From Flavobacterium sp. (GTDB taxonomy: Bacteria; Bacteroidota; Bacteroidia; Flavobacteriales; Flavobacteriaceae): a stretch of DNA of 35,721 nucleotides. Below are positions 19,445 to 28,791 of the stretch, piece after piece; the stretch's first letter is position 1; each line of letters opens with the position of its first letter. The notes under the pieces were generated by a model. It did not search any database, was not told the origin of the DNA, and saw nothing but the letters and a program-made list of their open reading frames with translations. The DNA lies in assembly GCA_012270005.1 (NCBI GenBank), contig JAAXJD010000113.1:1-35721 (forward strand). The letters are read 5' to 3'. The position numbers were made by a program, and so were the translations under genes.

Positions 19445-19474
19445 GCTGCTATTTAAATATAGCGGCTATATTTG
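19445..19474 (+). promoter_or_regulatory. -7 element with an adjoining inverted repeat, upstream of the MBOAT gene
   Basis: TATATTTG (19467-19474) is a full -7 consensus ending six bases before the ATG. Immediately upstream is an 8-bp inverted repeat gctgctat / atagcggc (19445-19452 and 19459-19466). It would occupy the promoter spacer and might be an operator, or the end of the upstream transcript. Confidence 0.45.
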
Positions 19475-19480
19475 CATTGT

Positions 19481-20929
19481 ATGCTGTTTACAACCACAAC
19501 TTTTGCAGTATTTTTCCTTATTGTTTTCGCGGCTTATTACCTGGCCGGTGAAAAAAGAAGGCATTGGCAAAATGTACTACTGCTTGCCGCCAGCTATGTT
19601 TTTTATTGCTGGTGGGATTGGCGTTTTGGTTTTTTACTTGCGTTTTCTACCGTACTGGATTTTGCCTGTGCGCATGCCATAGTAGTGCATTCAAAAAACA
19701 GGAAAGCATGGCTTGGTATAAGTATTACGGCAAACCTTTTGTTGCTGGGGGTATTTAAGTACTATGATTTCTTTGCGTCTTCGTTGGCGGGGCTAATCAC
19801 AGGCATGGGCTTATCGGTACACCTACCGTTGCTAAAACTAATTTTGCCGGTAGGTATTTCATTTTATACATTTCATGGTCTTTCCTATATAATAGATGTG
19901 TATAATAAACGCCTTAATCCGTGCCGGAATATAGTAGACTATAGCCTTTTTGTAAGTTTTTTTCCGCTACTGGTTGCTGGCCCTATAGAAAGGGCTACCC
20001 ACCTGCTTCCTCAGATACAAGCCAAACGTAGCTTTAATTACGGTTTGGCAGTTAATGGCTTACAGCAGTTGTTGTGGGGCTTGGTAAAAAAACTTGTAAT
20101 AGCCGATAACTGCGCTTATTTTGCTAATTACATCTTTGGGCACTACACCACACTTCCTGCTAGTAGCCTTTTACTTGGCGCGTTGTTTTTTTCGTTTCAG
20201 ATATATGGAGATTTTTCCGGATATACAGATATAGCCTCAGGAGTAGCCAAATTACTGGGTTTCCGTTTGCTGCGTAATTTTGATTTCCCGTACTTTTCAA
20301 GGAGTATAGCCGAGTTTTGGCGTAAGTGGCATATTTCGTTAACCTCCTGGTTCAGGGATTATTTATACATACCGCTGGGCGGTAGCAAGGAGGGCAGGGC
20401 ACGTACAGTACGAAATGTATTTATAGTATTTTTAGTAAGCGGCCTTTGGCACGGGGCGGGATTTACCTTTATAATATGGGGTTTACTGCACGCCCTCTAT
20501 TTTTTGCCCGGATTATTTTTGTCCCGAAATCGCGAATATGCCAGCCAGCCTGTTGCCGAAGCTAAAGTATGGCCTTCGTGGATAGACCTGATAAAAATGA
20601 GTACAACGTTTGGTTTGGTCACCCTGGCATGGATATTTTTCCGGGCGGAGAGTTTGGTGCAGGCAGCAGGCTACTGTAAAGGCTTGTTGAGCCTTTCTTT
20701 GTTTTCGGTACCATTACTTTATAATTTTCCGTATGCTGCTACTACGCTGTTACTGTTGGTAGGTTTCATAATAATAGAATGGCGCGGGCGTAACCGCGAG
20801 TTTGCAATTGAAGGAATGGCAAAAGATAAACCAAAGCTTCTACGCTGGGTACTGTATTGTTTTTTGGTTTTTGCGGTACTGTTTTTTATGAATACAGATA
20901 AAACTTCATTTATTTATTTCAGGTTTTAA
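19481..20929 (+). CDS. MBOAT family O-acyltransferase
   Basis: This is a polytopic membrane acyltransferase of the AlgI/DltB type. It transfers acyl (often acetyl) groups across the membrane onto an extracytoplasmic polymer. Visible hallmarks are WRKWHISLTSWFRDYLYIPLGG and the MBOAT active-site histidine in SGLWHGAGFTFIIWGLLHALY, within about ten hydrophobic segments. ATG at 19481 is preferred over a TTG nine bases upstream. The SGNH-like gene follows after two bases, the usual pairing of an MBOAT with its periplasmic acceptor-side partner. Polymer unknown. Confidence 0.9.
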   Translation: MLFTTTTFAVFFLIVFAAYYLAGEKRRHWQNVLLLAASYVFYCWWDWRFGFLLAFSTVLDFACAHAIVVHSKNRKAWLGISITANLLLLGVFKYYDFFASSLAGLITGMGLSVHLPLLKLILPVGISFYTFHGLSYIIDVYNKRLNPCRNIVDYSLFVSFFPLLVAGPIERATHLLPQIQAKRSFNYGLAVNGLQQLLWGLVKKLVIADNCAYFANYIFGHYTTLPASSLLLGALFFSFQIYGDFSGYTDIASGVAKLLGFRLLRNFDFPYFSRSIAEFWRKWHISLTSWFRDYLYIPLGGSKEGRARTVRNVFIVFLVSGLWHGAGFTFIIWGLLHALYFLPGLFLSRNREYASQPVAEAKVWPSWIDLIKMSTTFGLVTLAWIFFRAESLVQAAGYCKGLLSLSLFSVPLLYNFPYAATTLLLLVGFIIIEWRGRNREFAIEGMAKDKPKLLRWVLYCFLVFAVLFFMNTDKTSFIYFRF

Positions 20930-20931
20930 GT

Positions 20932-21879
20932 ATGAAAAAGTTTCTGAAAAATATAGCCTTGTTTACTCCGCTGTGTGTGGTGCTTTATTTTCTGTTATTA
21001 ATTATAATGGGAGAGTTTGCGCCACACTGGCTGTACAGTAACCTGAGATATACAAGGGGATATAGCGACACGGGTTTACGTATTGCCGATATAAATAATA
21101 CGCCACCGCCCGATATTTTGGTTTTAGGATCATCTCATGCTTATAGGGAATTTGATCCGCGTATTTTTCGTCAATACGGTTACACCATGTTTAATCTGGG
21201 TTCCAGTTCGCAAACGCCGGTGCAAACCGGGCTGCTGTTGCAGCGTTATTTAAAGAAATTAAAACCACGTTGTATTATATATGAAGTTTATCCCGGTACA
21301 TTTTCTGTAGACGGTGCTGAGGGCGCTGCCGACCTGATTTCTAATGATACTGTTAAGGCCGATATGCTTAACATGGCATTTGGGATAAACGATATTGTGG
21401 TGTACAATACCCTCGCCTTTGCATGGTATCGTCAGGTTACCCACCGGGATCATACAGAAATGCAACAGATATTAGATAAGAACGATACCTATGTGCAGGG
21501 TGGCTATGTGGAACGAAAGATGGAATTTTACACTCCCGATATACCTAAGGGTAAACCCATAAAATGGAAGTTAAAAAACAAGCAGTTTACTGCCTTTGCG
21601 CAAAACCTGGCTTTTATAAAATCGCAGCGCATACCTTATGTACTGGTATATGCTCCCATACCGCGTGTAAGTTACAGCCGTTGCAAAAATAACAATGAGT
21701 TTAGCGAGAGAATGGCTACTTACGGGCCTTATTACAACTTTAACGGTAAGGTGCCGCTTAATGACTCATTGCACTTTTTTGATAACAACCACCTTAATCA
21801 GCAGGGGGTAGCGTTGTTTAACAAAGCACTCCTTTCGGCAGAGACTGTATTGCCTTTAAAGCAAAAGCCGCTTAAGTAG
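20932..21879 (+). CDS. Membrane-anchored SGNH-like protein, MBOAT partner
   Basis: An N-terminal membrane helix (about residues 7-26) anchors a periplasmic domain with SGNH-hydrolase blocks. Block I is LVLGSSHAYREFD (Ser67-Ser68-His69) and the C-terminal block is FFDNNHLNQQG with Asp284 and His287. In DltD, AlgJ and AlgX-like proteins these residues form the Ser-His-Asp site that completes acyl transfer started by the MBOAT protein. The GSSH form, in place of the classical GDS, is usual in this sub-branch. The two-base gap from the MBOAT stop strongly implies a joint complex. A terminator overlaps the stop codon. Confidence 0.75.
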   Translation: MKKFLKNIALFTPLCVVLYFLLLIIMGEFAPHWLYSNLRYTRGYSDTGLRIADINNTPPPDILVLGSSHAYREFDPRIFRQYGYTMFNLGSSSQTPVQTGLLLQRYLKKLKPRCIIYEVYPGTFSVDGAEGAADLISNDTVKADMLNMAFGINDIVVYNTLAFAWYRQVTHRDHTEMQQILDKNDTYVQGGYVERKMEFYTPDIPKGKPIKWKLKNKQFTAFAQNLAFIKSQRIPYVLVYAPIPRVSYSRCKNNNEFSERMATYGPYYNFNGKVPLNDSLHFFDNNHLNQQGVALFNKALLSAETVLPLKQKPLK

Positions 21880-21895
21880 CGGCTTTTGTGTTTTT
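21862..21895 (+). terminator. Terminator of the MBOAT-SGNH operon
   Basis: An 11-bp stem caaaagccgct / agcggcttttg (21862-21872 and 21878-21888) with a 5-base loop is followed by a T-rich run. The stem overlaps the last codons and the stop. It may also act on the convergent lptB transcript, since it is A-rich on the other side. Confidence 0.85.
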
Positions 21896-22728
21896 TATTC
21901 TTGGGTTGTTGTAGTACTATCTGTTGCGGTGTCGGTAGTTGCGTCTACAGTTTCTGCCGCAGTTGTTTCTTTACCGGGCCTTGGCGCATAAAAGTCGATT
22001 TTCTTTTTACGAAGCTCAAAATTTTGCCCCAGGTATACTTTACGTACCATTTCGTCGCTGGCCAGGTCTTCCGGTATACCGGCCTTAAGTATACCTCCTT
22101 CAAACATAAGGTAGGTTTTATCTGTTATGGCTAAGGTTTCCTGCACGTTGTGGTCTGTAATCAAAATACCTATGTTGCGGTCTTTTAGCTGGGCTACAAT
22201 ACGCTGAATATCTTCTACCGCTACGGGGTCTACACCTGCAAACGGTTCATCGAGCAGAATAAACTTAGGGTCTGTAGCCAGCGCACGGGCTATCTCTGTA
22301 CGGCGGCGCTCGCCACCGCTTAGCAGGTCGCCACGGTTAGTACGAATGTGCCCCAGTGAAAACTCATCGATAAGCGCTTCCATTTTTGCTTCCTGTTCTT
22401 TTTTAGAAAGGTTAGTAAGTTGCAGCACGCTCATAATGTTATCTTCAATACTCAGCTTACGGAATACCGATGCTTCCTGGGCAAGGTACCCTATGCCGTA
22501 TTGTGCACGCTTGTACATAGGGAAATTAGTAATCTCGGTCTGGTCCAGGTATATTTTGCCGCTGTTAGGCTTTACAAGCCCTACAATCATGTAAAACGAA
22601 GTGGTTTTACCGGCACCGTTGGGCCCCAGCAAACCCACGATTTCGCCTTGGTTTACCTCAACCGAAATGCCTTTTACCACACTACGGCCCTTATATGTTT
22701 TGATTAAATTGTCTGCCCTTAACTTCAT
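21895..22728 (-). CDS. lptB: LPS export ABC transporter ATP-binding protein LptB
   Basis: LptB is the cytoplasmic ATPase that powers LPS extraction by LptFGC. It shows Walker A GPNGAGKTTS (residues 35-44), the Q-loop region YLAQEASVFRKL, the ABC signature LSGGERRR, Walker B FILLDEPFAGVDP and the switch TDHNVQET. The core ends near residue 245 with YLGQNFELR. About 30 more residues follow, rich in Thr, Asp and Ala (ETVDATTDTATDSTTTTQE), which I do not know from LptB in general. It is the last gene of the kdsD-tatC unit, after an 88-base gap with an inverted repeat. Confidence 0.93.
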   Translation of the reverse strand: MKLRADNLIKTYKGRSVVKGISVEVNQGEIVGLLGPNGAGKTTSFYMIVGLVKPNSGKIYLDQTEITNFPMYKRAQYGIGYLAQEASVFRKLSIEDNIMSVLQLTNLSKKEQEAKMEALIDEFSLGHIRTNRGDLLSGGERRRTEIARALATDPKFILLDEPFAGVDPVAVEDIQRIVAQLKDRNIGILITDHNVQETLAITDKTYLMFEGGILKAGIPEDLASDEMVRKVYLGQNFELRKKKIDFYAPRPGKETTAAETVDATTDTATDSTTTTQE

Positions 22729-22816: not shown

Positions 22817-23170
22817 TTATTTTGATGCATTTTCCTCTAGCGCTTCCCAAAACTCGTAAGCGCGGCGCAGGTGCGGTATTACTATGGTGCCACCTACAAG
22901 GGTAGCTATGCTTAGCGCTTCCATAACCTCAGCTTTTGTAAGCCCTTCTTTATAACTGGTTTCCAAGTGGTATTTTACACAATCGTCGCAGCGTAGTACG
23001 GCACTAGCCACCAGCCCCAGAAGCTCCTTGGTTTTTACATCAAGCGCGCCTTCCATGTAAGCATTGGTATCCAGGTTAAAAATACGCTTAATTACTTTAT
23101 TATCATCTGCCAGAAGCTTTTCGTTCATTTTCTGGCGGTAGTCGTTAAATTCGTTTACTAAGTTTGCCAT
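22817..23170 (-). CDS. Carboxymuconolactone decarboxylase/AhpD-like protein
   Basis: This 117-residue all-helical protein has the AhpD-type redox motif Cys61-Asp-Asp-Cys64-x3-His68 (RCDDCVKYHLE), followed by GLTKAEVMEALSIATLVGG. The family includes decarboxylases and alkylhydroperoxidase reductants. The CxxC-x3-H form points to a thiol peroxidase or disulfide-handling role rather than ring decarboxylation. Its start shares one base with the tatC stop, so translation is coupled. That link suggests, but does not prove, a role in redox protection of exported or envelope proteins. Confidence 0.85.
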   Translation of the reverse strand: MANLVNEFNDYRQKMNEKLLADDNKVIKRIFNLDTNAYMEGALDVKTKELLGLVASAVLRCDDCVKYHLETSYKEGLTKAEVMEALSIATLVGGTIVIPHLRRAYEFWEALEENASK

Positions 23171-23988
23171 TATTCAGCAGTTTTAGGGGTTTTATTAGTT
23201 CGGGCCGCTATAAGTATACTGGCCTCATATAAAATTACAAGCGGTATGGTTACGGTCATTTGGCTCACTACATCGGGCGGGGTAACTATAGCAGCTACAA
23301 TAAGTATGATAACCAGTGCATAGCGCCTGTATTTTCTTAAAAATGCTGCGGTAACCAGTCCCATTTTTGCAAGGAAATAAATAATCACCGGTAACTCAAA
23401 CGCTAGGCCGCACGATAGTACCGTGGTTTTAACCAGGCTAAGGTACGAGTCTAGGTCTACGTTATTTACAACAATGTCACTGATCTTATAGTTAGCCAAA
23501 AAGTTTATTGAAAGCGGCATAATCAGGTAATACCCAAAAACCACACCAAGGAAAAACAACAGCGAAGTACCGGTAATAAAAGACACTGCGCCTTTACGTT
23601 CTTTTTCATATAGTGCCGGACTTATAAACTTCCATATTTGATACAGGATGTACGGAAATGCTATGATAATACCTGCCACAATAGCCGTCCAGATGTCTGT
23701 AGTAAACTGCCCGTCCATATTACGGCTAATGATGGTAACCGGAATTTCGGTAACGCAAAAGCTTTTATCGAGGTCGTATTTGTTAGCGGCGTCGCAAAAA
23801 ATACGGTATGTAACAAAGTCGCCCTTAAGCGGCGCGAAAATTACATCGTCAAAAATTTCGCGGCTAAACGTAAAGGCTATTATCGCGCCTATAAGTATAC
23901 CTGCGCTGCTGCGTACCAACAGCCATCGTAATTCTTCTAAATGATCCAGGAACGACATTTCGCCTGTACTGTTCTTTTCTTTTGCCAT
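23170..23988 (-). CDS. tatC: Sec-independent (Tat) protein translocase subunit TatC
   Basis: TatC recognises twin-arginine signal peptides and builds the translocase with TatA. The N-terminal signature MSFLDHLEELRWLLVRS (from residue 11) and the SPALYEKERKGA loop are present with six hydrophobic helices. The first periplasmic loop (about 55-100) is enlarged and contains two cysteines (FCDAANKYDLDKSFC), as commonly seen in Bacteroidota TatC. Length 272. tatA/tatB are not in the window. It lies 8 bases after the upstream 510-residue gene. Confidence 0.94.
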   Translation of the reverse strand: MAKEKNSTGEMSFLDHLEELRWLLVRSSAGILIGAIIAFTFSREIFDDVIFAPLKGDFVTYRIFCDAANKYDLDKSFCVTEIPVTIISRNMDGQFTTDIWTAIVAGIIIAFPYILYQIWKFISPALYEKERKGAVSFITGTSLLFFLGVVFGYYLIMPLSINFLANYKISDIVVNNVDLDSYLSLVKTTVLSCGLAFELPVIIYFLAKMGLVTAAFLRKYRRYALVIILIVAAIVTPPDVVSQMTVTIPLVILYEASILIAARTNKTPKTAE

Positions 23989-23996
23989 AAATGCAA

Positions 23997-25529
23997 TTAT
24001 CCTTTTTTATATTTTGCCATGCGCTCGTATACACGTGCCGGCACCTTGTTCATATCCTTGCCCTGAACCTTCATGAGCTCCAGGTATTTTTTGTAGGTAT
24101 CAGCGGCAAGTTCCCTGTACCTTTCATTAATATACATATCCCAATGCACATCGGCAAGGTTAAGCCATGCCACCGCCCTGTCCGGGAACTTACGGGTTAT
24201 ATCGCCCCGCAAAGTTACGCAAGAAGAGCCAACCCCACGCTCTCCTTTTAAATCTGAAAGCAAAAATTCTGACATATAATACGCAATATCGTTGTATTGC
24301 TGCACATTAGCCCTAGTTAATGGAGTTGTATCCTGCAAAGCGAGTATTTCACCATAATCCGGCAAAAGCGCACAACCGTTGCGAAAACAGCCCGGGCTTC
24401 CCTTGTCAGAAAGCCGTTTAAGCAACCCCTGCAATGTAAACTTTCGCTTAAAACTGTAGCTGTGAAATGCATAATCTCCCGATAATTCAAACCGTTCAAG
24501 CGCATATAAATAATTAGTATCTGCGGGGTAAAAATCCTCCTCAAAGTTACAGATTGCTTCAGGTACGCCCTTATTACCTTTTCTACTGGTATGGGTGGTA
24601 TAACGGTATTTTACAAGGCCCGCAGTATTGTACTTTTTTGAAAGCACAAAATAGTAGGTATAGGTTTTTACATCTGTTCCCCTATATACAGGTGTGGCTA
24701 CCAGAAGCGTATCGCCGCTAAAACGAATATAATTTTTCGCGTTTTTATCCTTAAGCAGCCACATGGCGTCGGTATTGCCGTAAGTAATTTCTTTTTTCGT
24801 CCAGTCTATGTTGTACATTTCAGGCTCACCATCGGCATTAAGGTCTAATGTTTTTTTATATTTAGTGGTGGGTACAAATCCTGATTTCCAGTTAAACGCA
24901 GGAGCCTTTACTTTTAAAACCGGGTCTACATACGTGTCATAGTCGGTAAGCGGTTCAGTACGCACAAATTTGTGAAACTCCAATAATGTTTTACCGGTTT
25001 GGTCTATGAAGGATAATGAAGGTTTATTGTTGTTACGGGCAACACTCATAATATGCTGATTATTCAACCAGTCATTAATGTAGTACGTATTTGCCTGCTC
25101 TGAATCAGGATCGAAATAACCGTCATCCACAAACTTGTCTCCTGATATGTAGTACAAACTAAACGCCTGGTATTCTTCCACATATTGCTTGTAAACAACG
25201 CAATACGCCTTTGCAGATTCAGAATAAAACAGATTCAGTTCGTTCTGAGGGTCATCAGTACCATCCATTATCCACTCGCTGATGGGTTTGCCGTTCATGG
25301 TAAACCGCGACATTGACCAGCAGGTAAAAGCGCAAGCCTCATCATGAATAGCTATCTGAATGCTAAGCTGCCCGTGTTTAACCTGGCAGTATATAACATC
25401 GTCCTGCGCCCTGTATTCATAGGTAGGCGTTACCCTCTTAAAATCGGTAATATTTTGGGCAAAGGCAAAAGGGATGGCAAAAAGCCAAAGCAGGGTAATC
25501 AAAATAGTTACAACCTTTCTTTTTGCCAT
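23997..25529 (-). CDS. Secreted 510-residue protein of unknown function
   Basis: I do not recognise a family. A clear signal peptide (VVTILITLLWLFAIPFAFAQ) ends near residue 25. The body is beta-rich with several cysteines (DEACAFTCWSMS near 65-72, CFRNGCALL near 390). Residues 229-237 (DLNADGEPE) match the DxNxDGxxE calcium-loop pattern of EF-hand-like or FG-GAP-type repeats. The last 70 residues look helical and TPR-like (FPDRAVAWLNLADVHWDMY, then an AADTYKKYLELMK helix). The gene sits between kdsD (9-base gap) and tatC (8-base gap), so it is translated from the same operon mRNA. A periplasmic or surface location is inferred from the signal; no catalytic motif is evident. Confidence 0.75.
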   Translation of the reverse strand: MAKRKVVTILITLLWLFAIPFAFAQNITDFKRVTPTYEYRAQDDVIYCQVKHGQLSIQIAIHDEACAFTCWSMSRFTMNGKPISEWIMDGTDDPQNELNLFYSESAKAYCVVYKQYVEEYQAFSLYYISGDKFVDDGYFDPDSEQANTYYINDWLNNQHIMSVARNNNKPSLSFIDQTGKTLLEFHKFVRTEPLTDYDTYVDPVLKVKAPAFNWKSGFVPTTKYKKTLDLNADGEPEMYNIDWTKKEITYGNTDAMWLLKDKNAKNYIRFSGDTLLVATPVYRGTDVKTYTYYFVLSKKYNTAGLVKYRYTTHTSRKGNKGVPEAICNFEEDFYPADTNYLYALERFELSGDYAFHSYSFKRKFTLQGLLKRLSDKGSPGCFRNGCALLPDYGEILALQDTTPLTRANVQQYNDIAYYMSEFLLSDLKGERGVGSSCVTLRGDITRKFPDRAVAWLNLADVHWDMYINERYRELAADTYKKYLELMKVQGKDMNKVPARVYERMAKYKKG

Positions 25530-25538
25530 AAAATGGTT

Positions 25539-26504
25539 TTATACAACTCCTTCTTTTAAAATATCGTGCAGGTGCAGTATGCCTTTATATTCGCCGTTAT
25601 CTATAACAACCAGCTGTGTAATGGCGTGGTTTTCCATAGTGTTAAAGGCATCAATAACCATGGCTGCAGCACTTACTGATTTTGGATTTTTTGTCATTAT
25701 GTCTGCTGCTGTAACCCCCGCAATGTTATCGCGGTCGTTAAGCATGCGGCGCACGTCGCCATCGGTAATCACACCCACTACTGTTCCGTTTTCTATAACC
25801 GCAGTAACCCCCAGCCTTTTGTCTGAAATTTCGTGTATGGCCACCTTTACGCTGTCGGTAGGTTTTACCATAGGTTTGCGTGTTACATCGAGCAGGTCTT
25901 GTACGCGGAGCAACAGTTTTTTACCCAGTGCACCCCCTGGGTGGTATTTTGCAAAATCATCGGGCGTAAATCCTCTTAGCTCCATAAGGCAGGCTGCCAG
26001 CGCATCGCCTATAACCAGCTGTGCCGTGGTGCTGTTCATGGGTGCCAGGTTTAGCGGGCACGCCTCTCGTTCTACATACGAATGAAGTACAAGGTCGGAT
26101 TCTTTTGCGAGGAAAGAATTTTTATTCCCCGTCATGCCCACCAGTGTATTGCCAAAACGCTTAATAAGCGGGGCAAGGGCTTTTATCTCGGGGCTGTTGC
26201 CGCTGTTGCTTATACAAATAACCACATCGCCGGGCTGTACCATGCCCAGGTCGCCATGAATGGCTTCTGCGGCGTGCAAAAATAACGATGGGGTGCCGGT
26301 GCTGTTTAGCGTAGCCACTATCTTGGCAGCTATAAGTGCGCTTTTACCAATACCGGTAATTACGGTACGGCCTTCTGATTTGTATATGCGGTTTAAGGTT
26401 TGTGTAAAGTCGTCTTCCATGTAGCTGGCAGGTTCAGCAATGCTCTCACGTTCAGAAAGTTTGGTTTTCCTGGCAGTAGCCAGTATTGCTTCTGTATCAG
26501 TCAA
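25539..26504 (-). CDS. kdsD: D-arabinose 5-phosphate isomerase (KpsF/GutQ type)
   Basis: The enzyme converts ribulose 5-phosphate to arabinose 5-phosphate, the first step to the LPS core sugar KDO. An N-terminal SIS domain shows GRTVITGIGKSALIAAKI, a sugar-contact segment LHAAEAIHGDLGM and the SNSGNSPE motif. Two C-terminal CBS domains follow (ITDGDVRRMLNDRD and the final LHLHDILKEG). The frame is open upstream to an ATG at 26708, but that ATG lies inside recQ. TTG at 26504 gives 321 residues, the usual length, beginning (M)TDTEAILATARKTK. So TTG is the likely start. It leads the operon with tatC and lptB, linking KDO synthesis with LPS export. Confidence 0.92.
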   Translation of the reverse strand: MTDTEAILATARKTKLSERESIAEPASYMEDDFTQTLNRIYKSEGRTVITGIGKSALIAAKIVATLNSTGTPSLFLHAAEAIHGDLGMVQPGDVVICISNSGNSPEIKALAPLIKRFGNTLVGMTGNKNSFLAKESDLVLHSYVEREACPLNLAPMNSTTAQLVIGDALAACLMELRGFTPDDFAKYHPGGALGKKLLLRVQDLLDVTRKPMVKPTDSVKVAIHEISDKRLGVTAVIENGTVVGVITDGDVRRMLNDRDNIAGVTAADIMTKNPKSVSAAAMVIDAFNTMENHAITQLVVIDNGEYKGILHLHDILKEGVV

Positions 26505-26595
26505 TCGATCGAAATATTTAAAGTAAGTTGCTGTTATAAAAGATTTTTGTATCTTTATTCTCTGCAAATTTATGTAAATTACTATTATTGAAATA

Positions 26596-28791
26596 ATGAA
26601 ATCGACCGAAATTGACTTACATAAAGAGTTAAAAAAATATTTTGGTTTTGACACGTTCAAAGGCCTGCAGGAAGATGTGGTGCGCAGTATAATATCAGGC
26701 CAGAACACTTTTGTGATTATGCCTACCGGCGGAGGTAAGTCGCTATGCTACCAGCTTCCCGCCCTTGTGCTACCCGGTACTGCCATAGTGGTTTCTCCAC
26801 TTATAGCCCTTATGAAGAACCAGGTAGATGCCATACGAGGCCTTTCGGCTGAGCAGGGCATAGCACACGTGCTGAACTCATCCCTTACGAAAACAGAAAT
26901 AAACCAGGTAAAGCAAGACATTACAAGCGGCATTACCAAGCTGCTCTATGTAGCGCCGGAATCGCTTACCAAGGAAGAATATACTACGTTTTTACAGACC
27001 GTACCGTTGTCTTTTGTAGCCATAGACGAAGCCCACTGTATATCAGAATGGGGGCATGATTTCCGTCCGGAATATCGTAACCTCCGCAATATTATACGCA
27101 ATTTGGGCGATGTGCCTGTAATAGGCCTTACCGCTACAGCCACGCCTAAGGTGCAGGAAGACATCCTTAAAAACCTTGATATGCCCGATGCCAATACCTT
27201 TAAGGCGTCGTTTAACAGGCCAAACCTGTACTATGAAGTACGTCCTAAGCAAAAAACGGTAGAGGGAGACATTATTCGCTTTATTCGTCAACACAAAGGC
27301 AAAAGCGGTGTGATTTATTGCCTTAGCCGTAAAAAGGTAGAGGAAATAGCGCAGGTGCTTCAGGTAAACGGGATTAGTGCCGTGCCGTACCATGCGGGGC
27401 TCGATGCTAAAACACGTGCCCGCCACCAGGATATGTTCCTTATGGAAGATGTAGATGTGGTGGTGGCTACTATAGCTTTTGGTATGGGTATAGACAAGCC
27501 CGATGTGCGTTTTGTAATTCATCATGACATTCCTAAGTCGCTGGAAAGCTATTACCAGGAAACGGGCCGCGCCGGCCGTGATGGCGGCGAAGGGCACTGC
27601 CTGGCGTACTACAGCTACAAAGACATAGAAAAGCTTGAAAAGTTTATGAGCGGTAAGCCGGTGGCAGAGCAGGAAATAGGCTATGCGCTGCTTCAGGAAG
27701 TAGTAGCTTATGCCGAAACTTCTATGAGCCGCCGTAAATTTTTGCTGCACTATTTTGGGGAAGAATTTGATGAGGTTAACGGCGAAGGTGCCGATATGGA
27801 CGACAATGTGCGTAATCCTAAAAAGAAAACCGAAGCTAAAGACCAGGTGGTTACCCTGCTAAAAGTAGTACGCGATACAAAACAGCTTTATAAAGCAAAA
27901 GAAATTATTTTTACCCTTACCGGTAAAATAAACGCCGTTATTAAGGCACACAAGACCGATACCCAGCCGTTTTTTGCGTCGGGTAAGGATTTTGACGAAA
28001 AGCACTGGATGGCGCTTGTACGCCAGGCGCTTGTAGCCGATTTGCTGGACAAGGATATAGAAACTTACGGGATCATAAATCTTACTCCAAAAGGTGAAGC
28101 GTTTATAGATAACCCGGTTTCGTTTATGATGACCGAGGATCATGACTTTACCGAAACGGAAGATGATACCAGTACAACAGCTTCTAAAAGTAGCGGTGTA
28201 GCCGATGAGGTGCTTATAAGCATGCTGAAGGACCTGCGCAAAAAAGTAGCTAAGAAACTGGGTGTACCGCCGTTTGTGGTGTTCCAGGATCCGTCGCTGG
28301 AAGATATGGCGCTAAAATACCCTGTTAATCTTGAGGAGCTGGGTAGCGTGCATGGTGTGGGCGAAGGCAAGGCTAAAAAGTACGGTAAGGAGTTTGTAGA
28401 TTTAATTGCACGATATGTGCAGGATAACGACATTACCAGGCCAGATGACCTTGTGGTGAAAACTACCGGGGCTAACAGCAGCCTTAAGTTATACATTATC
28501 CAGAATATAGACCGTAAGCTTTCGTTAAACGACATAGCCCGTGCCAAAGGACTCGATATGGATGCGCTGCTTAAAGAAATGGAGCAGATTGTATATAGTG
28601 GCACTAAGCTAAATATTAAGTATTGGGTAGACGAAATACTGGATGAAGACCAGCAGGAGGAAATCCACGATTACTACATGGAAAGCGAAAGCGATAGCAT
28701 TAAAGACGCCCTTAAGGAGTTTGATGGTGATTACGATACCGAGGAGCTTAGGCTTATGCGTATTAAATTTATAAGCGAAGTAGCTAATTAA
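26596..28791 (+). CDS. recQ: ATP-dependent DNA helicase RecQ
   Basis: A superfamily 2 3'-5' helicase of recombination and repair. It shows Walker A PTGGGKSL (residues 43-50), DEAH (144-147) in IDEAHCISEWGHDFRPEY, motif V/VI with YQETGRAGRDG, then a winged-helix RQC region. An HRDC domain (about 530-605: DEVLISMLKDLRKKVAKKLG and GVGEGKAKKYG) and a C-terminal helix-turn-helix-like tail follow. The segment after the helicase core (SMSRRKFLLHYFGEEFDEVN, continuing to DMDDNVRNP) has no cysteine, although classical RecQ holds four zinc-binding Cys there. Full length (731 residues) and divergent from kdsD with a 91-base intergenic region. Confidence 0.94.
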   Translation: MKSTEIDLHKELKKYFGFDTFKGLQEDVVRSIISGQNTFVIMPTGGGKSLCYQLPALVLPGTAIVVSPLIALMKNQVDAIRGLSAEQGIAHVLNSSLTKTEINQVKQDITSGITKLLYVAPESLTKEEYTTFLQTVPLSFVAIDEAHCISEWGHDFRPEYRNLRNIIRNLGDVPVIGLTATATPKVQEDILKNLDMPDANTFKASFNRPNLYYEVRPKQKTVEGDIIRFIRQHKGKSGVIYCLSRKKVEEIAQVLQVNGISAVPYHAGLDAKTRARHQDMFLMEDVDVVVATIAFGMGIDKPDVRFVIHHDIPKSLESYYQETGRAGRDGGEGHCLAYYSYKDIEKLEKFMSGKPVAEQEIGYALLQEVVAYAETSMSRRKFLLHYFGEEFDEVNGEGADMDDNVRNPKKKTEAKDQVVTLLKVVRDTKQLYKAKEIIFTLTGKINAVIKAHKTDTQPFFASGKDFDEKHWMALVRQALVADLLDKDIETYGIINLTPKGEAFIDNPVSFMMTEDHDFTETEDDTSTTASKSSGVADEVLISMLKDLRKKVAKKLGVPPFVVFQDPSLEDMALKYPVNLEELGSVHGVGEGKAKKYGKEFVDLIARYVQDNDITRPDDLVVKTTGANSSLKLYIIQNIDRKLSLNDIARAKGLDMDALLKEMEQIVYSGTKLNIKYWVDEILDEDQQEEIHDYYMESESDSIKDALKEFDGDYDTEELRLMRIKFISEVAN

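Follow-up and report, generated by a model that had tools for sequence, protein, structure and literature searches.

The locus described here lies on contig JAAXJD010000113.1 of a Flavobacterium sp. genome, in a stretch of 35,721 nucleotides that was analysed as a whole and is called the window below. The following features were assigned:

25539..26708, minus strand: kdsD-like gene (KpsF/GutQ family, TIGR00393), the upstream neighbour; its true start lies inside the listed open reading frame
23997..25529, minus strand: gene of a proposed orphan T6SS immunity protein with a putatively exported 510-aa product (from the open reading frame, the context of relatives and a genome without TssC)
25458..25529, minus strand: signal-peptide-like N-terminus, residues 1-24, cleavage AFA/Q (read by eye)
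24819..24845, minus strand: DxNxDGxxE calcium-loop-like motif, residues 229-237 (counterparts in L131 and L133)
24345..24851, minus strand: region colinear with a subfamily found beside M23 effectors (L131, L133, L048, L126), residues 227-395 (from hhalign over 227-506 and a conditional shuffle test; not significant without the TPR part)
24015..24344, minus strand: C-terminal TPR-like module, residues 396-505, common to proteins of T6SSiii islands (sequence and profile matches)
23170..23988, minus strand: tatC, the downstream neighbour (TIGR00945 above cut-off)
22817..23170, minus strand: CMD-family gene of the same operon (PF02627)
21895..22728, minus strand: lptB (TIGR04406 above cut-off)
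25521-25529 (gene start), 24012-24020 (near gene end) and 23980-23988 (tatC start), minus strand: copies of the 9-mer ATGGCAAAA

The reading frame at 23997-25529 is intact, with 510 codons between an ATG start and a TAA stop. It begins 9 bases past the kdsD-like gene and ends 8 bases before tatC, on the same strand as both, which agrees with the preliminary description of this DNA. The names given there to the neighbours hold for tatC and lptB; the product of the third gene scored above the cut-off of TIGR00393 but below that of the KdsD equivalog model, and is a KpsF/GutQ-family sugar-phosphate isomerase. The signal peptide reported earlier corresponds to a hydrophobic N-terminus that ends in AFA/Q and, by eye, reads as such. 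The calcium-loop-like motif was found where it had been placed, with the sequence DLNADGEPE at residues 229-237; similar motifs align with it in L131 and L133 and are absent from L048 and L125. Two of the cysteines that had been pointed out, C327 and C386, are kept in all five rows of the closest-subfamily alignment, and the C terminus, previously called helical, is TPR-like. The protein was also said to match no known family, and we found none in Pfam or NCBIfam at E<=1 (no Pfam family falls in the N-terminal part) and no PDB sequence at E<=10. An AlphaFold2 model computed from three sequences had a mean pLDDT of 39.9; at most its TPR tail can be used. An XAC2610-like fold for the DxNxDG region was considered and dropped, as profile searches of PDB sequences returned TPR proteins and marginal matches only. 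Searches of phage, plasmid and viral contigs revealed no relative.

To see how the operon is arranged elsewhere, tatC loci from the same genus were compared. TatC was present in 144 of the 150 genomes sampled, and the best 30 of these 144 loci, one of them the window itself, were examined. In all 29 others kdsD adjoins tatC with no gene between them. The distance from the kdsD stop to the tatC start is 4 bases or less in 24 of the 29 and 80 bases in L039; in the remaining four the tatC start was left unresolved by our script, and the BLAST matches abut or overlap. The closest locus among those examined, from genome G547, encodes a TatC 79% identical to that of the window. The window gene occupies the kdsD-tatC site in none of the 29, and a search with the whole protein in 100 related genomes yielded two partial matches (G056 and G088) and no full-length relative. 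With 29 empty sites and partial matches only, the gene is best read as an insertion in the lineage of the window. It had been taken for an integral member of the kdsD-tatC-lptB operon, a view against which its absence from this locus in relatives was to count; absent it is, as far as we looked, and we regard that view as very improbable.

The slot between tatC and lptB varies too, since the CMD-family gene is missing from it in nine of the 29 loci (L024, L029, L030, L031, L033, L034, L035, L037 and L042). Besides the three copies of ATGGCAAAA listed above, a plus-strand copy is found at 25474-25482. The window holds seven copies versus 0.91 expected, a number reached in none of 100 shuffles, the 9-mer having been picked after sight. 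The copies that flank the inserted gene and mark the tatC start are a possible insertion scar. Base composition was tried as a sign of foreign origin and gave no signal (G+C 0.419 in the gene and 0.418 in tatC).

The part of the protein that does have relatives is the TPR-like module formed by the last ~110 residues. Against a profile of the group, in which the window protein is itself one row, its C-terminal module scored E values of 3.3e-38 to 3.1e-41. The first relatives came from the same genus (L002/L047 and L006/L046), the same order (L003/L048), Fulvivirga sediminis (L004) and the same class (L007/L049). At E<=1e-9 the module was detected in 16 of 398 genomes of the genus (the genome of the window and 15 others) and in 33 of 246 genomes of the family of G088. 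A search of the class at E<=1e-8 returned 10 of 395 genomes, namely the window's own, G291, G145 and seven with weaker matches. The proteins of these seven resemble generic secreted TPR proteins, and inspection by eye of their 1.5-kb flanks revealed no effectors. Judged by sequence, then, secure homology of the window protein is limited to the C-terminal TPR-like module, and there is no sharp line between such modules and those of generic secreted TPR proteins. The alignment also places a 9-residue and a 4-residue insertion in the TPR tail of the window protein relative to its relatives, which could reflect drift.

Among genomes with the module at E<=1e-9 in the genus and in the family of G088, TssC was found in all 48 other than that of the window. 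Within the genus, 15 of 15 carriers have TssC versus 67 of 396 sampled genomes (binomial 2.7e-12, relatedness ignored). T6SSiii, as stated in excerpts of PMC10781749, is the sole T6SS type of the phylum, patchy in Flavobacterium and quite ubiquitous in some genera of the family of G088. TssC is interrupted by one internal TAA in three genomes of the genus, the carriers G614 and G630 and also G663, and is split in two in G667; these sheath genes may be broken or recoded.

The genome of the window (93% complete) contains no TssC, no DUF4280 and no match at E<=0.001 to the one M23 and one GH19-like effector that were used as queries. By these marks the gene is an orphan, and it stands between kdsD and tatC rather than beside an effector, unlike the immunity gene of a cognate effector-immunity pair. 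The three nearest genomes tested likewise lack TssC, which leaves a recent loss of T6SS without support; DUF4280 and matches to those effectors are absent from them as well. The distant carrier G145 also has no TssC. The absence of DUF4280 alone proves little, since G579 has TssC and lacks DUF4280.

The surroundings of the first relatives were read with Pfam and our own profiles, over 17-18 kb for L046-L049 and 8.6 kb for L004. Enzymes of the GH19-like, lysozyme or M23 type were found near the module gene in L046, L047, L048 and L004. Genes for DUF4280, a PAAR-like domain (assigned to the PAAR type in an excerpt of PMC8651086), were found in L046-L048, and L047 contains TssC as well. In L049 no effector, DUF4280 or TssC was seen within 17 kb. 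The carrier protein there (L049:8646-9902), from genome G145, is another orphan or else a TPR protein of the generic kind. In the T6SSiii island of L048, the gene beside that of the TPR-tailed protein (L048:10511-11308) encodes a protein that looks exported and has an SH3_3 domain and a weak match to FG-GAP.

Another 57 stretches, each 4.5 to 20 kb long, brought the relative loci to 62 with these five seed loci included; in none of the 62 were kdsD, tatC, CMD or lptB matched. L124 has no module-bearing reading frame and was dropped, so that 61 loci were counted. DUF4280 was found in 31 of the 61 and a GH19-like, lysozyme or M23 protein in 36; at least one of these markers was present in 47. 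The effector profiles were built from the seed loci (the GH19-like label, in particular, is our own profile on three of them), and with the five seed loci left out the last count becomes 43 of 56. By chance, DUF4280 would be expected in roughly 2.6% of loci, if a genome has 8 copies per 5 Mb, as did the richest of nine genomes. Fourteen of the 61 loci had no marker, three of them at contig ends (L138, L140 and L167). Pfam matches above cut-off were obtained for M23 in L048, L125, L131 and L121, for lysozyme in L047, for YkuD in L113 and for GH19 in L116 and L135; the remaining GH19 matches were below the curated cut-off, most of them just under it.

Several other proteins at these loci deserve mention. 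The protein at L113:2988-5609, near a TPR-tailed protein, is an effector candidate of a T6SS island, with its YkuD (L,D-transpeptidase) domain above the Pfam cut-off. Upstream proteins at L127:8876-10144, L156:5566-6990 and L163:4360-6015 share a C-terminal domain that has no Pfam name and is perhaps a toxin domain. The L156 protein carries DUF4280 at its N-terminal side, found by Pfam and additional to the 47 loci counted above.

The make-up of the relatives was analysed by clustering their two parts separately with BLAST at E<=1e-4, N-terminal parts being taken from the start of the protein when longer than 100 residues. The 66 C-terminal modules, that of the window included, formed one cluster, joined by matches to 65 of 65 other module-bearing proteins. 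The 61 N-terminal parts, again with the window, fell into 14 clusters, and the window protein was a singleton. Membership in an N-terminal cluster was related to the type of neighbouring effector, crudely chosen as the closest protein upstream with 400 or more residues: over 47 pairs, the adjusted mutual information was 0.229, and the largest value in 2000 permutations was 0.172 (genome relatedness ignored). One cluster of tails with many heads is the pattern expected of modular immunity proteins with a variable effector-binding head.

Whether the window protein resembles any one subfamily ahead of its tail was studied in several comparisons. In hhalign, residues 227-506 matched the long relatives with a probability of 99.2 and an E value of 1.4e-19, and hmmsearch aligned residues 223-504 to them; in both cases the score came largely from the TPR part. 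With that part removed, residues 215-398 scored 12.2 against the M23 subfamily, below the 12.9 that shuffles averaged; pairwise shuffles of the N-terminal part were negative as well. A one-sequence hmmsearch with residues 25-395 reached 3.6 bits (E 0.0027) and is given no weight here. In a conditional test the TPR part was kept, residues 25-395 were shuffled 200 times and 60 relatives were ranked. Members of the M23-linked N-terminal cluster came out at ranks 1 (L131), 2 (L133), 3 (L048), 5 (L126) and 11 (L125), and the real score was reached by 0, 1, 1, 1 and 21 of the 200 shuffles, respectively. Full-length homology to L003/L048, suggested by eye, was favoured by the conditional test only; neither the pairwise shuffles nor the TPR-free profile comparison backed it, and we claim it weakly.

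In this cluster, the genes of L131 and L125 each share 4 bases with the end of an effector gene, across its stop codon, and Pfam assigns an M23 domain to both effectors; the gene of L126 overlaps in the same way an M23 effector recognised by our own profile. In L048 a lipoprotein-like gene lies between effector and module gene, and L133 has no recognised effector. An M23 effector is also found in L121, upstream of a member of another N-terminal cluster, which counts against an M23 target. Beyond its tail, the window protein appears to extend best, if weakly, towards the subfamily found beside M23 effectors.

We consider it probable that the gene, set into a housekeeping operon, codes for an orphan T6SS immunity protein that would act in the periplasm, most likely against an effector of the M23-endopeptidase type. 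In T6SSiii-bearing Flavobacteriales, relatives of the protein mostly lie in islands whose genes encode injected effectors, and peptidoglycan is the target of many of these; an immunity protein of this kind would be exported and block its effector in the periplasm. The variable N-terminal head would bind the injected peptidoglycan hydrolase and so protect the cell from lysis, and the constant TPR-like tail may serve as a scaffold or a second contact. One such gene would have been inserted between kdsD and tatC in a genome with no detectable TssC or DUF4280 and no match to the two effectors searched for. From this setting we infer that the gene is transcribed with kdsD and tatC, and that its product, once exported, may bind its target and offer protection against T6SS-armed neighbours. 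The choice of target is more tentative than the general role: an M23-type endopeptidase leads the candidate effector types, at low confidence and with odds clearly short of even.

An alternative, unlikely in our judgement yet the most serious one, is a secreted TPR protein that serves the envelope of this lineage in some way other than immunity and would have only the TPR tail in common with the island proteins. It would accommodate the restriction of secure homology to the tail, the singleton status of the N-terminal part by BLAST, the generic secreted TPR proteins among the weaker relatives, and the protein of G145, which occurs without TssC or effector. Against it, the strongest matches lie mostly in T6SSiii islands, matches at E<=1e-9 outside the genome of the window come only from TssC-bearing genomes, and in the conditional test the N-terminal extension favours one immunity-type subfamily. 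Less probable still is a functionless relict, that is, an immunity gene left over or captured after T6SS loss and now drifting. The insertions in the tail and the lack of TssC, DUF4280 and the tested effectors in the genome fit such a relict, but the reading frame of 510 codons is unbroken and fits neatly between its operon neighbours, and the three nearest genomes tested are also without TssC. An operon member that takes part in KDO, Tat or LPS biology, as suggested by the shared strand, the tight spacing and the exported-looking N-terminus, is very improbable given the 29 empty sites in 29 of the closest relatives examined, the lack of a full-length relative in 100 related genomes and the other contexts of the C-terminal relatives; of the envelope role put forward in the preliminary description, an exported periplasmic protein stays plausible and the tie to KDO, Tat or LPS export is not supported.

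Orphan immunity has precedents. Such genes are documented in gut Bacteroidales as the AID-1 and rAID systems (PMC12247911, in excerpt), which likewise consist of immunity-type genes without cognate effectors and are presumed to defend against the T6SS of neighbours. As described in that excerpt, these systems form arrays; those of rAID include a recombinase, and their genes are short, at about 100-300 codons. In our case, in another order, a single gene of 510 codons for a putative, TPR-tailed immunity protein stands by itself among kdsD, tatC, CMD and lptB.

The TPR-tailed proteins of T6SSiii islands (L131, L125, L126, L048, L046 and others) resemble the window protein in their C-terminal module and exported-looking N-terminus, and the L131 group also, with weak support, in a colinear middle region. 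They differ in lying beside effectors and DUF4280 in TssC-bearing genomes, whereas the window protein has no effector next to it. By a crude pattern, 40 of 60 TPR-tailed relatives are lipoprotein-like, whereas the window protein appears to have a non-lipoprotein signal.

Repeats of the TPR superfamily also occur in Sel1E, the immunity protein of VgrG4 in Klebsiella (part of PMC7108748). Going by the description there, Sel1 repeats make up much of Sel1E, whereas the window protein consists of a long variable part with a short TPR-like tail at its end. A similar make-up, with immunity domains fused to TPR repeats, is described for polymorphic toxin systems (PMC3482391, in part); the domains there belong to named Imm families, whereas the N-terminal part of the window protein has no Pfam family. 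In the literature on T6SS immunity in Bacteroidetes and Flavobacterium, of which our search covered few subscription papers, no description of a TPR-tailed family was found. Orphan immunity, a Sel1/TPR-like immunity protein and immunity-TPR fusions are already known, and the lone TPR-tailed copy in a housekeeping operon would be a further form.

It is conceivable, though we would not put it at even odds, that Bacteroidota possess an unnamed class of modular immunity proteins, with exchangeable, exported, effector-recognising heads on a constant TPR tail, and that in an unarmed Flavobacterium relative one such protein gene has become fixed within the kdsD-tatC-lptB operon, so that cell-wall defence is coupled to the steady expression of envelope biogenesis. 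If so, a lone copy in a housekeeping operon of an unarmed relative would be another route by which targets of T6SS gain defence. With the TPR tail as a sequence handle, immunity proteins could also be found across Flavobacteriales, and effectors by way of them; immunity proteins of this kind otherwise match no family there.

Elsewhere in the window, convergent with lptB, the plus strand at 19472-21879 encodes an MBOAT O-acyltransferase (PF03062) followed by a 315-aa protein that belongs to no family; the two may form a polysaccharide acylation pair.
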